Shown here one piece after another: positions 16,962 to 55,955 of a DNA stretch of 64,000 nt. Numbering within the stretch: position 1 is the first letter of the stretch; every line of letters starts with the position of its first letter. The DNA is from Austwickia sp. TVS 96-490-7B (lineage in GTDB: Bacteria > Actinomycetota > Actinomycetes > Actinomycetales > Dermatophilaceae). Where the stretch lies: NCBI RefSeq assembly GCF_019331795.1, contig NZ_JAHPZL010000004.1, positions 239,870 to 303,869 on the forward strand, in the 5' to 3' direction. The notes under the pieces were generated by a model, which searched no databases, had not been told where the DNA came from, and was given only the letters and a program-made list of their open reading frames with translations. Both the position numbers and the translations under genes were made by a program.

Positions 16962-18317
16962 TCAGGCGTTGGGTGCGCTATCGGTGCCGACGCCACGGCG
17001 ACGGATCTTCACCGCGGTGACACCGTCAGTGCTGCCCATCTGCCCAGTCGCCGCGTCACCGTGGCCGCCATGCTCACCGTGGCCGCCATGCGCACCATGG
17101 TCCTCATGCGCACTGTGCCCGTCATGGTCACCGTCGTGGCTGTGGGCACCTCCGCCGCAGGATCCCGAACCACCACATGATCCGGAGCCGCCGCAGGACC
17201 CGGAGCCACCACAGGTTTGACCGACGACGTGGGAGTGTCCTTCAGCGACCCCGTGGACATGGCCGTGGGTGGCGGCTTCAGCGGCGGCGAGGATCTCTTC
17301 GGGGGTGCCGCCGCCTTCGATGGTGAAGCCGAGGTCGGAGATCATCTGTAGGTCCGCGGCGCCAGCCTGGCCTTCAGAGGTGAGGTAGTCGCCGAGGAAG
17401 ATGGAATTGGCGATTTCCAGGGCAAGCGGTTGCAGACTGCGCAGGTGGTATTCGCGTCCAGCTGCCGCGCGGACCTCGGTGTTGGGGTGCACGAAACGGA
17501 CCATCGCGAGGATGCGCAGGCAGCGTTGCGGGGTGAGCGCGAGGTGTCCACCGAGGGGGGTGCCTTCGAAGGGCAGCAGGAAGTTGACGGGGACGGAGTC
17601 GGCGCCGATGTCCCGAAGCGCGAAGACCACGTCGACGAGTTGTTCGTCGGTTTCGCCCATGCCGGCGATCAGGCCGGAGCAGGCTGACATTCCACCGGCG
17701 TGGGCAGCTTCGACGGTGGCTTCCCGGTCGGCGTAGGTGTGGGTGGAGCAGATCTCGTCGTACGCCGATTCAGCGGTGTTGAGGTTGTGGTTGTAAGCGT
17801 CAGCACCTGCCTGGTGCAGGCGGCGGGCTTGGTCTTCGGTGACGAATCCGAGGCAGGCGCATACTTCGACCTCGGGGTTGTCGGCTTTGATGCCTTCGAT
17901 GATTCCGGCGACTTTTTCGATTTCCCGGTTGCTGGGGCCTCGGCCGGAAGCGACGAGGCAGACGCGTCGAGCGCCACCGGCGACTCCGGCAGCGGCGGCT
18001 GCAGAGGCTTCGTCTTGGCCAAGCCAGCTGTATTTGAGGACGCCTGCTTCAGAGCCGAGGGCTTGGCTGCAGTAGTGGCAGTCCTCGGGGCACATGCCGC
18101 TCTTGAGGTTGATGAGGTAGTTCAGTTTGATGGTGGTGCCGAAATGGGCTCGACGGACGGTGGATGCCGCTGCCACCAGGCTCATCAGCGTGTCGTCACC
18201 GGAGCGCAGGATCGCGAGGGCCTGCTCCCGGGTGACGGATTCGCCGCGCAGCCCAGCCGCGATGAGGGCGTGCAGGTCCAGCGTCGCAGCGGTGGGCGGC
18301 GTTTCGAGCGTGGTCAT
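16962..18317 (-). CDS. bioB: Biotin synthase with a His/Cys-rich C-terminal tail
   Basis: 451 residues, about 100 more than usual. Radical-SAM enzyme that inserts sulfur into dethiobiotin. The 4Fe-4S motif CPEDCHYC is intact (about residue 76), followed by family motifs such as YNHNLNT and the second-cluster Arg/Cys positions. After residue ~355 comes an extension: [13 protein letters not shown], then four CGGSGS-type repeats, then [17 protein letters not shown]-like sequence, rich in possible metal ligands. Start ATG 18317 with AAAGG upstream; GTG 18326 is too close to it. Last gene of bioA-bioD-bioB. The tail's role (iron or other metal storage or delivery) is inference. Confidence 0.95.
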
Positions 18318-53574: not shown

Positions 53575-53600
53575 CCGACTTCTCCCCACAGAAGTAACCA

Positions 53601-53640
53601 ATGCATGTGGGGGCACCACTGAGTGCGCCCCCACATGCAT
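53601..53640. promoter_or_regulatory. Leader hairpin upstream of the ABC exporter ATPase
   Basis: Perfect 14-bp inverted repeat ATGCATGTGGGGGC / GCCCCCACATGCAT with a 12-nt loop, 27 bases before the ATPase ATG on the minus strand. A strong stem in the 5' UTR suggests attenuation or translational control. Upstream on the same strand (53649-53702) a mini-ORF reads MMRTADMWKKCEKATSR and stops 8 bases before the hairpin; it has no clear ribosome-binding site. Confidence 0.65.
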
Positions 53641-53974
53641 ACATCATCTCAACGGCTCGTGGCCTTCTCGCACTTCTTCCACATGTCAGCAGTGCGCATC
53701 ATCGCATTTTCGATAAGACAAAAGACCTGAACAGATAATGCGCACCGCTATCGCTAATGGGTAGTACCCTAACTAGCGGCAAGCTAAAATCAAGCATGCA
53801 CCGACTCAAACTAGCGCATCTTGCATAAAAATTTACCTTAAGCAGATATTTTCGCCTGACCTTGACGCACTGAGTGTGTGATTCACAATAGATTGACCCT
53901 CTTTGCGAAAATCCGAAAACTTGCAGGTGATCGCAGGTCGCAGGCTCATCCAGCGGGCGCCGCCCCGCACACCA
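53641..53974. other. AT-rich region upstream of the exporter
   Basis: 334 bases between the leader hairpin and array B, AT-rich in the part 53700-53900 and including the mini-ORF at 53649-53702. Promoter for the leftward exporter operon is expected here. Rightward and leftward open frames are unconvincing. Confidence 0.5.
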
Positions 53975-54294
53975 CGCCCACGGGCGACATTCCCGACATC
54001 CCAACCCGCCCACGGGCGACATTTCCCCACAAAACCCCAGGACACCTCTCACCAAACCCGCCCACGGGCGACTTTTCGGCGTAAAACCCCAGGACACCTC
54101 TCACCAAACCCGCCCACGGGCGCACTCCGCACCACCCCACCTGCAGGTTCACCCCACTAAACCCGCCCACGGGCGACTTTCCCGACATCCCAACCCGCCC
54201 ACGGGCGACTGTTCGGCGTAAAACCCCAGGACACCTCTCACCAAACCCGCCCACGGGCGACATCGGGGGAACGAAAAGACGCCCATGGGCGGGT
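53975..54294. repeat. Repeat array B: seven phased copies of CGCCCACGGGCGAC plus an inverted relic
   Basis: Cores start at 53975, 54007, 54059, 54111, 54164, 54196 and 54248: spacings 32, 52, 52, 53, 32, 52 bp. Copy 4 has GGGCGCAC instead of GGGCGAC. A degenerate CGCCCATGGGCGGG lies at 54281-54294. Three of the 52-bp spacers contain AAAACCCCAGGACACCTCTC and the two 32-bp spacers CCCGACATCCCAAC. Same family as array A (16640-16800). Frames across it, such as 53946-54431 minus, are translated repeats and not credible genes. Confidence 0.92.
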
Positions 54295-54947
54295 GGGGGG
54301 GTGGAGCGTCGCGTCACGAGCATGGCGTCTCCAGCATCGCGCCGTTCCATGACGAAGCGACGCCGCCCCAGGGTGGTGAGCGGGGCGGCGTCGCCGTCGG
54401 CGTCGGCGTGGGGGTCCGACGCTGGTGCCACCAGTGGCAGCCCACCACTGGCAACCAGGGCCCCTCAGCGGGGGACGGTCAGGAGAGTGGTTGGCTCAAC
54501 GGCTGGTGTGCCTGGCATGGCACGTTCGTACGACGCCACACGTTCGGACGACGCCACACGTTCGGACGACGGTGCAGCTCCGCTCTCGGCCTCGGGTTCG
54601 TACGACGGCGCAGGTCGGTACAACGGCGTAGCTGCGTGTCCCACCACGGGCGCGGATCCCACCACTGGCGCGAATCTCACTGCAGAGGCGCATGTCACGG
54701 TGGATGTGTGTGGCGCCGCATAGAACGGAGCTGCGGATGGCTCGGCGCTGAACTGACATGTGTTCCCCCTCAACGATGTGTCAGCGGTGCGGTCGTCCCC
54801 GTGGTGCTGGTGGGTGTCGTTGATGCCTGTCATCCACGGTAAACACCACATGTTCATTAGGTCAACTAATGACCTAGGCTAAATTTTCCTGCGGATTCAG
54901 GCACCCCCGGGGCGCATCGGCGTATCCCCCGTGGCTAGTGTCGGGTC
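54295..54947. other. Region between array B and the aldo/keto reductase
   Basis: 653 bases. Open frames exist on both strands. The best is 54496-54759 minus (87 codons, GAGGGGG eight bases before ATG) with a Cys-rich, repeated CGVVRT C-terminus; 54465-54857 minus and 54301-54723 plus compete. A repeat with CGTTCGGACGACGCCACA, twice at about 54539-54575, lies in this region. I cannot tell which, if any, is a gene. Confidence 0.3.
54858..54876. promoter_or_regulatory. TAGGTCA-N5-TGACCTA dyad upstream of the aldo/keto reductase
   Basis: Perfect 7-bp inverted repeat TAGGTCA-ACTAA-TGACCTA, with an overlapping ATTAG-GTCAA-CTAAT dyad, 72-90 bases upstream of the reductase ATG. TTAGGT/ACCTA halves recall iron-type IdeR boxes, but the spacing is two bases larger than the 19-bp consensus, so the regulator is uncertain. 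Confidence 0.5.
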
Positions 54948-55955
54948 ATGGAGCATCGTCATCTTGGCAACAGCGGATTGAAGACCAGCGAGATCATCTA
55001 TGGCAACTGGCTGACCCACGGGTCCCAGATTGAGGCCGACGCAGCCACCGCCTGCGTCCGCGCCGCACTCGACGCGGGAATTTCGACGTTCGACACCGCC
55101 GACGTCTATGCCAACACCGCCGCTGAGACTGTGCTCGGCGCAGCTCTGGCGGGCGAGCGTCGTGAGTCGTTGGAGATCCTCACGAAGGTGTATTGGCCCA
55201 CTGGTCCGGCGGGTCACAACGATTGCGGTCTGTCGCGTAAGCACATCATGGAGTCGATTAACGGCTCGCTGCGTCGCCTGCAGACTGATTACGTCGACGT
55301 GTATCAGGCGCACCGGTTTGACACCGAGACGCCGTTGGAGGAGACGATGCAGGCGTTCGCCGATGTCGTCCGTTCTGGCAAGGCGTTGTATATCGGGGTT
55401 AGTGAGTGGACGGCCGATCAGATTCGTCAGGGCCAGGAGTTGGCACGTCAGCTGGGGTTCCAGTTGATCTCCAACCAGCCGCAGTATTCGATGTTGTGGC
55501 GGGTCATCGACGATGAGGTGGTGCCGACGAGTCGCGAGTTGGGTGTGTCGCAGATCGTGTGGTCGCCGATGGCTCAGGGCGTTTTGACTGGTAAATACGT
55601 GCCCGGTCAGTCTGCGCCGGAGGGCAGCCGGGCGACACATCCGCAGACCAAGGACATGATTTCGCGGTGGATGGAGGATGACATCCTGACCGCCGTGCAG
55701 CGGTTGCATCCGGTGGCGGAGGCTGCGGGTCTCTCGATGGCTACCCTCGCGGTCGCGTGGGTGCTGCAGAACGACAATGTGGCCGGTGCGATTGTGGGTG
55801 CGTCGCGGCCGGAGCAGTTGGCGGACAGTGTGGCGGCGACCGGCGTACGTCTTGATGAGGCGACGATGGCGGCGGTGGATGAGGCTCTGGGTGCTGTCGT
55901 GGTGCGGGATCCGGGGATGACTGCGCAGCTGGCACCGAAGACGCGGCCTTGCTGA
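54948..55955 (+). CDS. Aldo/keto reductase (Kv-beta / YghZ-like)
   Basis: 335 residues, TIM-barrel NADPH oxidoreductase. Catalytic tetrad visible: TFDTADVYANTAAE (Asp, Tyr; ~50), ILTKVYW (Lys) and VYQAHRFD (His), with SEWTADQI and the C-terminal NADPH loop GAIVGASRPEQLADSV. The opening MEHRHLGNSGLKTSEI is typical. It reduces aldehydes or ketones; substrate unknown. The ATG has no clear ribosome-binding site. A dyad lies upstream (54858-54876). The region between 54295 and the start holds no firm gene. Confidence 0.9.
   Translation: MEHRHLGNSGLKTSEIIYGNWLTHGSQIEADAATACVRAALDAGISTFDTADVYANTAAETVLGAALAGERRESLEILTKVYWPTGPAGHNDCGLSRKHIMESINGSLRRLQTDYVDVYQAHRFDTETPLEETMQAFADVVRSGKALYIGVSEWTADQIRQGQELARQLGFQLISNQPQYSMLWRVIDDEVVPTSRELGVSQIVWSPMAQGVLTGKYVPGQSAPEGSRATHPQTKDMISRWMEDDILTAVQRLHPVAEAAGLSMATLAVAWVLQNDNVAGAIVGASRPEQLADSVAATGVRLDEATMAAVDEALGAVVVRDPGMTAQLAPKTRPC

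Follow-up and report, generated by a model that had tools for sequence, protein, structure and literature searches.

The window analysed here, a stretch of 64,000 nucleotides from the genome of an Austwickia strain, carries a run of short palindromes at regular distances (array B), and the question it raises is whether such a run is a platform for a DNA-binding protein or a repeat of another kind. The answer could be approached by considering the anatomy of the run, its relatives elsewhere in the same genome and in other genomes, the helical spacing of its cores, and its direction relative to the replication origin.

Array B and its family in the genome

Array B is real and consists of seven direct cores and one inverted core within 53975-54294 (Table 1). 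The initial annotation had reported seven copies of one sequence at distances of 32, 52, 52, 53, 32, and 52 bp; these spacings stand as given, but only six of the seven are exact copies of the 14-mer CGCCCACGGGCGAC (53975, 54007, 54059, 54164, 54196, and 54248), whereas the fourth, at 54111, ends in CA and thus has two mismatches. The inverted eighth core, CGCCCATGGGCG, follows 32 bp beyond core 7. With up to two mismatches, the 14-mer is matched 14 times in the window, compared to an average of 3.24 matches (sd 1.82, maximum 9) in 100 dinucleotide-preserving shuffles. The proposed folding of each core into a hairpin with a 5-bp stem and a two-nucleotide AC loop had to be abandoned, as such a loop is generally known to be sterically impossible in a single strand. 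A single-stranded core would instead form a 4-bp hairpin with a 4-nt loop, or the core could act as a duplex dyad. Tandem repeats of 18 bp, possibly coding for six-residue repeats, lie close to array B (54521-54574 and 54639-54680) and to the second array of the window, array A (17056-17215).

Table 1. Positions in the window of the cores and spacers of array B, and of array A
Feature	Position	Strand	Basis or remark
Core 1, CGCCCACGGGCG	53975..53986	+	sequence match
Short (S) spacer, 20 nt	53987..54006	+	
Core 2	54007..54018	+	sequence match
Long (L) spacer, 40 nt, contains AAAACCCCAGGACAC	54019..54058	+	
Core 3	54059..54070	+	sequence match
Long spacer, 40 nt	54071..54110	+	
Core 4, then CA in place of AC	54111..54122	+	sequence match
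Long spacer, 41 nt, variant with ACCTGCAGGT	54123..54163	+	
Core 5	54164..54175	+	sequence match
Short spacer, 20 nt	54176..54195	+	
Core 6	54196..54207	+	sequence match
Long spacer, 40 nt	54208..54247	+	
Core 7	54248..54259	+	sequence match
Short spacer ahead of the inverted core, 20 nt, sequence differs from other S spacers	54260..54279	+	
Terminal inverted core CGCCCATGGGCG, then GGTG, a partial mirror of the AACC preceding direct cores	54280..54291	-	
Array A, same family, locus L162	16640..16798	+	spacings 32, 52, 32, and 31, the last leading to a degenerate terminal core with GG after it

The family extends over the genome. Allowing at most one mismatch, the 16-mer CCCGCCCACGGGCGAC is matched 87 times in the 3.63-Mb genome, and a reversed control pattern is not matched at all. 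A core scan with at most two mismatches in the fetched surroundings of the 16-mer matches revealed 23 arrays with 122 cores genome-wide, an array being defined as consecutive cores within 60 bp of each other. At the genome level, this search covered cores that lie near a 16-mer match. All 87 matches of the 16-mer are located inside arrays of at least two cores, and the only one that appeared single has a partner 31 bp off. A profile built from 30 core-L-core units yielded 70 matches at E 0.01, all of them inside known arrays, among the best 150 of 2459 candidates.

The consensus of these 30 units is AAACC-CGCCCACGGGCG-AC; AAACC stands ahead of most cores, and AC after many of them. The general core pattern can be written as CGCCCRYGGGCG, with AC, AT, GC, or GT at the core centres within arrays. 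The L spacers carry a AAAACCCCAGG- or ACCTGCAGGT-like sequence approximately 30 bp past the start of the preceding core. By reading the array sequences, 8 of the 23 arrays were found to end in a core followed by GG, which mirrors the 5′ flank. Copies within one array are near duplicates, and arrays are shared between loci whose flanks differ. Another repeat of this genome, with a 29-bp period and the sequence CGACATATCGC, lies at 84.0 kb of contig C35 (L190:9016).

Helical spacing of the cores

The 99 spacings within arrays fall into a short class of 30 (1), 31 (17), and 32 bp (32) and a long class of 51 (1), 52 (34), and 53 bp (14). The two classes are not made by the 60-bp limit, because the core distances in the fetched loci leave a gap between 54 and 234 bp. 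Helical phasing, which had been proposed for array B, survived this genome-wide tabulation: the spacings keep to the two classes, and when periods of 5 to 60 bp were scanned using every pair of cores that share an array, the peak was at 10.5 bp. At 10.5 bp per turn, the mean S spacing of 31.62 bp corresponds to 3.01 turns and the mean L spacing of 52.27 bp to 4.98 turns, and long arrays stay near phase over spans of 304, 305, and 302 bp (28.95, 29.05, and 28.76 turns). The chance that two random class means would lie this near to whole turns is p 0.0023 at a fixed period of 10.5 bp and p 0.013 when the period is free over 10.3-10.7 bp.

The spacers bear on whether the spacing is kept by selection. 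Greedy clustering at 75% identity divides the S spacers into 21 sequence groups, the representatives of which have a mean identity of 0.49 and lengths of only 18-20 nt, and the L spacers form 8 groups of 39-41 nt. Terminal inverted cores are reached through differing spacer sequence, yet they are 31-32 bp away. In a neutral star-tree simulation, the constant S length has p values of 0.18, 0.0097, and 0.0001 when indels amount to 2%, 5%, and 10% of substitutions, respectively, and p values of 0.26 at 5% and 0.05 at 10% indels when only one third of the substitutions is counted. Selection cannot be argued from S length at an indel share of 2% of substitutions, and the argument is weaker should just one third of the divergence between spacers be genuine. 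Length compensation between neighbouring S and L spacers, which would have argued strongly for selection on phase, was looked for and is absent (permutation p 0.22). Ancestry accounts for part of the spacing constancy, since the copies within an array are near duplicates. The evidence for phasing is made up of the two spacing classes and their conservation. Intrinsic curvature was also considered as an explanation that needs no protein; the curvature predicted with a wedge model is not uniform, exceeding all 60 shuffles in three of the eight arrays tested (of 23) but not in the other five.

Sites approximately three or five helical turns apart would put the cores on one face of the helix, on which a putative dimeric DNA-binding protein could stack cooperatively along the array. 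The helical spacing, the length kept under sequence drift, and the phased inverted ends would agree with a DNA platform for a dimeric protein. For array B, cooperative protein binding, as suggested in the initial annotation, may reasonably be assumed from the sequence.

Distribution, direction, and a possible role

The array profile matches only one of 186 genomes of the family, the window's own, in a search with stricter filters by which weak matches are lost. The 16-mer search covered 38 genomes, namely the own genome and 37 relatives, three of these in the genus; it gave 46 matches in the relatives versus 58 for the reversed control, which is chance level. Among 396 genomes of the order, including the own, a two-core pattern was matched 47 times in the window's genome, and two further genomes had a single match each. 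These two candidates were rejected, the first having spacings of 33/33/51 bp and reading as a coding repeat, the second being a single 29-bp pair, both in long stop-free frames. A 33-bp repeat with the same palindrome in the relative G430 (L295) lies in a long open frame, where it reads as a recurring peptide motif. Phage and plasmid collections gave nothing that matches array B at E 1e-5. Four viral contigs hold one core pair 30 or 31 bp apart, and in one of them a third core lies at a distance of 137 bp from this pair. The pairs of all four are within long stop-free frames, and none of the contigs has three or more closely spaced cores. In a pattern scan of named genomes, which matched at least 118 stretches, two of those listed have cores within 60 bp when one mismatch is allowed; they were set aside because their spacings, 18-18-18 and 57 bp, are different.

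In the sister genome G002, no phased k-mer arrays were detected in 20 stretches of 20 kb, with a detector that is not fully sensitive, since it recovered 16 of the 23 known arrays (14 of 19 loci). The array is absent from the orthologous G002 stretches at four gene ends (kdpE, pepN, the gene before the first L165 array, and bioB). A further search (R1) in seven other genomes reached through loci gave 0 matches, with no positive among these genomes. The arrays are dispersed over the chromosome and unmatched in the relatives searched, and appear from these searches to be species-specific.

The gene dnaA is on contig C2 at 378.5 kb and, in G002, at the beginning of a chromosome contig of 3.63 Mb. 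Orthologous genes were used to map C35, C55, C24, C18, C2:235-256 kb, and the end of C56 onto G002, a placement that rests on one sister species and on draft contigs, with C18 placed from one gene and C29 from one short gene. The C-rich strand points toward the origin in 19 of the 23 arrays: 11 on C35, three on C55, two on C24, and one each on C18, on C56, and at C2:254 kb. The four that point away are at C2:442 kb, at C2:459 kb (two arrays), and on C29. In a one-sided binomial test, the excess has p 0.0013 for arrays (19/23) and p 0.0022 for loci in which arrays within 2.5 kb are merged (16/19). The GC skew agrees with the map for C24, where 9 of 13 samples are negative, and for C56, where 9 of 10 are positive, and is near zero for C35. 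Single hits at C35:302 kb, C56:34 kb, and C56:300 kb disagree with the map, and two of nine segments compared with G002, those from C29 and C35:7 kb, gave no hit.

Compared with G002, the genes at C2:440 and C2:452-457 kb have the opposite direction relative to the fork, which would explain the three exceptions on C2. The explanation is not complete, because the 459-kb arrays are flanked on their opposite side (C2:460 kb) by a gene that maps unflipped to 1.386 Mb of G002. A gene block that is contiguous in G002 (3.163-3.179 Mb) is split over C35:135 kb and C2:452 kb in the window's genome, the C2 part lying beyond dnaA, which reflects either a rearrangement or an assembly fault. Array direction would seem to be tied to replication direction, and the bias can be explained either by insertion linked to one of the two replication strands or by selection that disfavours one orientation.

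The reading that we favour, at about even chances, is that the arrays are species-specific dispersed intergenic repeat modules acting as a helically phased DNA platform for a putative dimeric protein. The arrays would probably shape local nucleoid or supercoil structure, by analogy with BIME-2 arrays and gyrase in E. coli, and they may have expanded through duplication of core-S-core-L modules; we infer the bound protein, its cooperativity, the architectural role, and this mode of expansion. A more far-reaching proposal, which we consider speculative and rather unlikely, is that they represent a new class of chromosome-organising element, in which polar phased arrays pointing to the origin in one species would be recognised by an architectural or replication-coupled protein of their own, one that emerged or spread alongside them. 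Intergenic repeats are often regarded as debris, and a spacing in 10.5-bp steps under sequence drift, together with mostly one direction versus the origin, could offer a natural test of dispersed repeats as platforms for architectural proteins. The array sequence could also be used as bait for finding its protein.

Known systems and rival explanations

Among known repeats, PMC2817692 describes gyrase binding and a chromosome-organisation role for BIMEs and substantial length variation in the inter-REP segments of Stenotrophomonas. PMC3733652 defines REPs by a GTAG or CGTC tag at one palindrome end, and CGTC REPs are said there to have no dedicated transposase. As with these REP and BIME elements (E. 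coli BIME-2 and Stenotrophomonas), the present arrays are many-copy GC-rich intergenic palindromes, built from modules into composite clusters and species-specific. Unlike REP/BIME, however, they run head-to-tail rather than alternating, with at most a terminal core with a mirrored flank (8/23), and they are phased at 10.5 bp and polar relative to the origin. Their spacers are fixed at 18-20 and 39-41 nt, unlike those of Stenotrophomonas BIMEs, and the consensus of 30 units lacks the GTAG/CGTC tag of the definition. The arrays are REP/BIME-like, but three features tested, namely the tag, the alternating orientation, and RAYT (Y1, PF01797) in the genome, were not found, and they are therefore not standard REP/BIME.

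The TAACTGA heptamers of Beggiatoaceae and others are, according to PMC4679880, genome-wide direct repeats that are mostly intergenic and mostly just upstream of start codons, and a translational role is proposed for them. The present arrays share with this description the genome-wide, mainly intergenic short direct repeats, but consist of 12-bp palindromes with helical spacing, and a start-codon link was not noticed. No description of helically phased head-to-tail palindrome arrays was found in searches of open-licence literature, including PMC3733652, PMC2817692, PMC4679880, and PMC12306157.

The arrays also invite comparison with phased and polar DNA sites of other kinds. Plasmid iterons and ParR/TubR centromeres are helically phased direct repeats stacked by a small dimeric DNA-binding protein, and occur as one or few sites per replicon beside the gene of their own protein. 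The spacing of sites in whole helical turns is found here as well (3.01 and 4.98 turns), whereas there are 23 chromosomal arrays with no common neighbouring gene noticed. KOPS, Chi, and AIMS are short polar motifs that are singly dispersed over whole genomes and follow the direction of replication. The arrays resemble them in direction, which, judged from synteny with a single sister genome, is toward the origin for 19 of 23 and away from it for 4, but the 16-mer occurs in arrays only and in one genome, without the frequent single copies of such motifs.

A possible though doubtful explanation is a REP- or MITE-like selfish repeat that serves no host function, was spread into intergenic DNA by an enzyme, and keeps its spacing by recent ancestry only. 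The enzyme would perhaps act on the single-stranded lagging-strand template, which would yield the observed direction along replication. The presence of the arrays in one genome only among those searched, the four array-free gene ends of G002, the differing flanks around shared arrays, the near copies among modules, and a 24-bp terminal inverted repeat bounding one array (L153, at C24:559 kb of the own genome, G000) all speak for such spreading, but half-diverged S spacers of different arrays retain their length, and the 16-mer is confined to arrays of at least two cores. The Y1 transposase PF01797 was not found at E 0.001, with a control matched in 5 of 14 genomes; the Y2 transposase PF04986 gave 0 matches, and its control also matched in 0 of 14. 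We regard as improbable a polar site of replication or segregation (for instance, a one-way barrier to forks, or a site that guides or loads a motor), whose reverse orientation would stall forks or misguide the motor. This explanation could account for the 19 arrays that point to the origin while the direction of adjoining genes varies, and three of the four exceptions adjoin the flipped genes; against it are the unflipped gene across from the C2:459-kb arrays, the reliance of the map on one sister species and draft contigs with some disagreeing single hits and a flat C35 skew, and the expectation that core segregation systems would be common to relatives, where the arrays were not found.

The platform reading also has to be weighed against functions in RNA or protein. 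An RNA-level element, i.e., a terminator, a rho site, or a small RNA with repeated hairpins, seems very unlikely, although the plus-strand spacers are C/A-rich (45% C and 11.5% G), resembling rho-loading sequence, and some arrays directly follow a called stop codon. Neighbouring genes are divergent, convergent, or co-directional depending on the locus, the arrays being on either strand in no fixed relation to gene direction, and helical phasing would be meaningless for RNA. Two 146-nt stretches of array B have fold z values of -0.77, -0.91, -0.78, and -1.79 over both strands, and 41, 38, 43, and 10 of 200 shuffles fold as well, so that RNA structure is not clearly better than in shuffles. Nothing in 53600-55000 reaches an Rfam gathering score; two sub-threshold matches, both after array B, are to 6C RNA (54352-54432, minus strand, 29.3 bits versus 47) and to CcsR1 (16.8 versus 65.3). 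A CRISPR array or a translated repeat protein is hardly credible, even though the arrays are direct repeats with spacers and stop-free frames through them are common (43 of 66 on the plus strand and 39 of 66 on the minus strand, in 22 of 23 arrays). In contrast to the unique spacers between identical repeats of CRISPR, the spacers here are shared within and between arrays, and the cores have 12 bp. A translated repeat is disfavoured because steps of 31/32 and 52/53 bp do not keep the reading frame, and no Pfam family was matched by any of the five ORFs on or next to array B. ORFs were placed over arrays at 6 of 19 loci by a simpler caller, which uses the GC content at codon positions, but no gene called from codon usage, with ORFs holding N skipped, covers an array, and by this second caller all arrays are intergenic. 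The initial annotation's reading of array B as neither CRISPR nor a gene is thereby supported.

Separate CRISPR-like arrays with a 61-bp period, picked up by the k-mer detector, are present elsewhere in the same genome, at C24:389 kb (L203) and C56:378-382 kb (L214). An ORF of 67 aa with a good codon score lies between two arrays at L151:2799-2999 on the plus strand.
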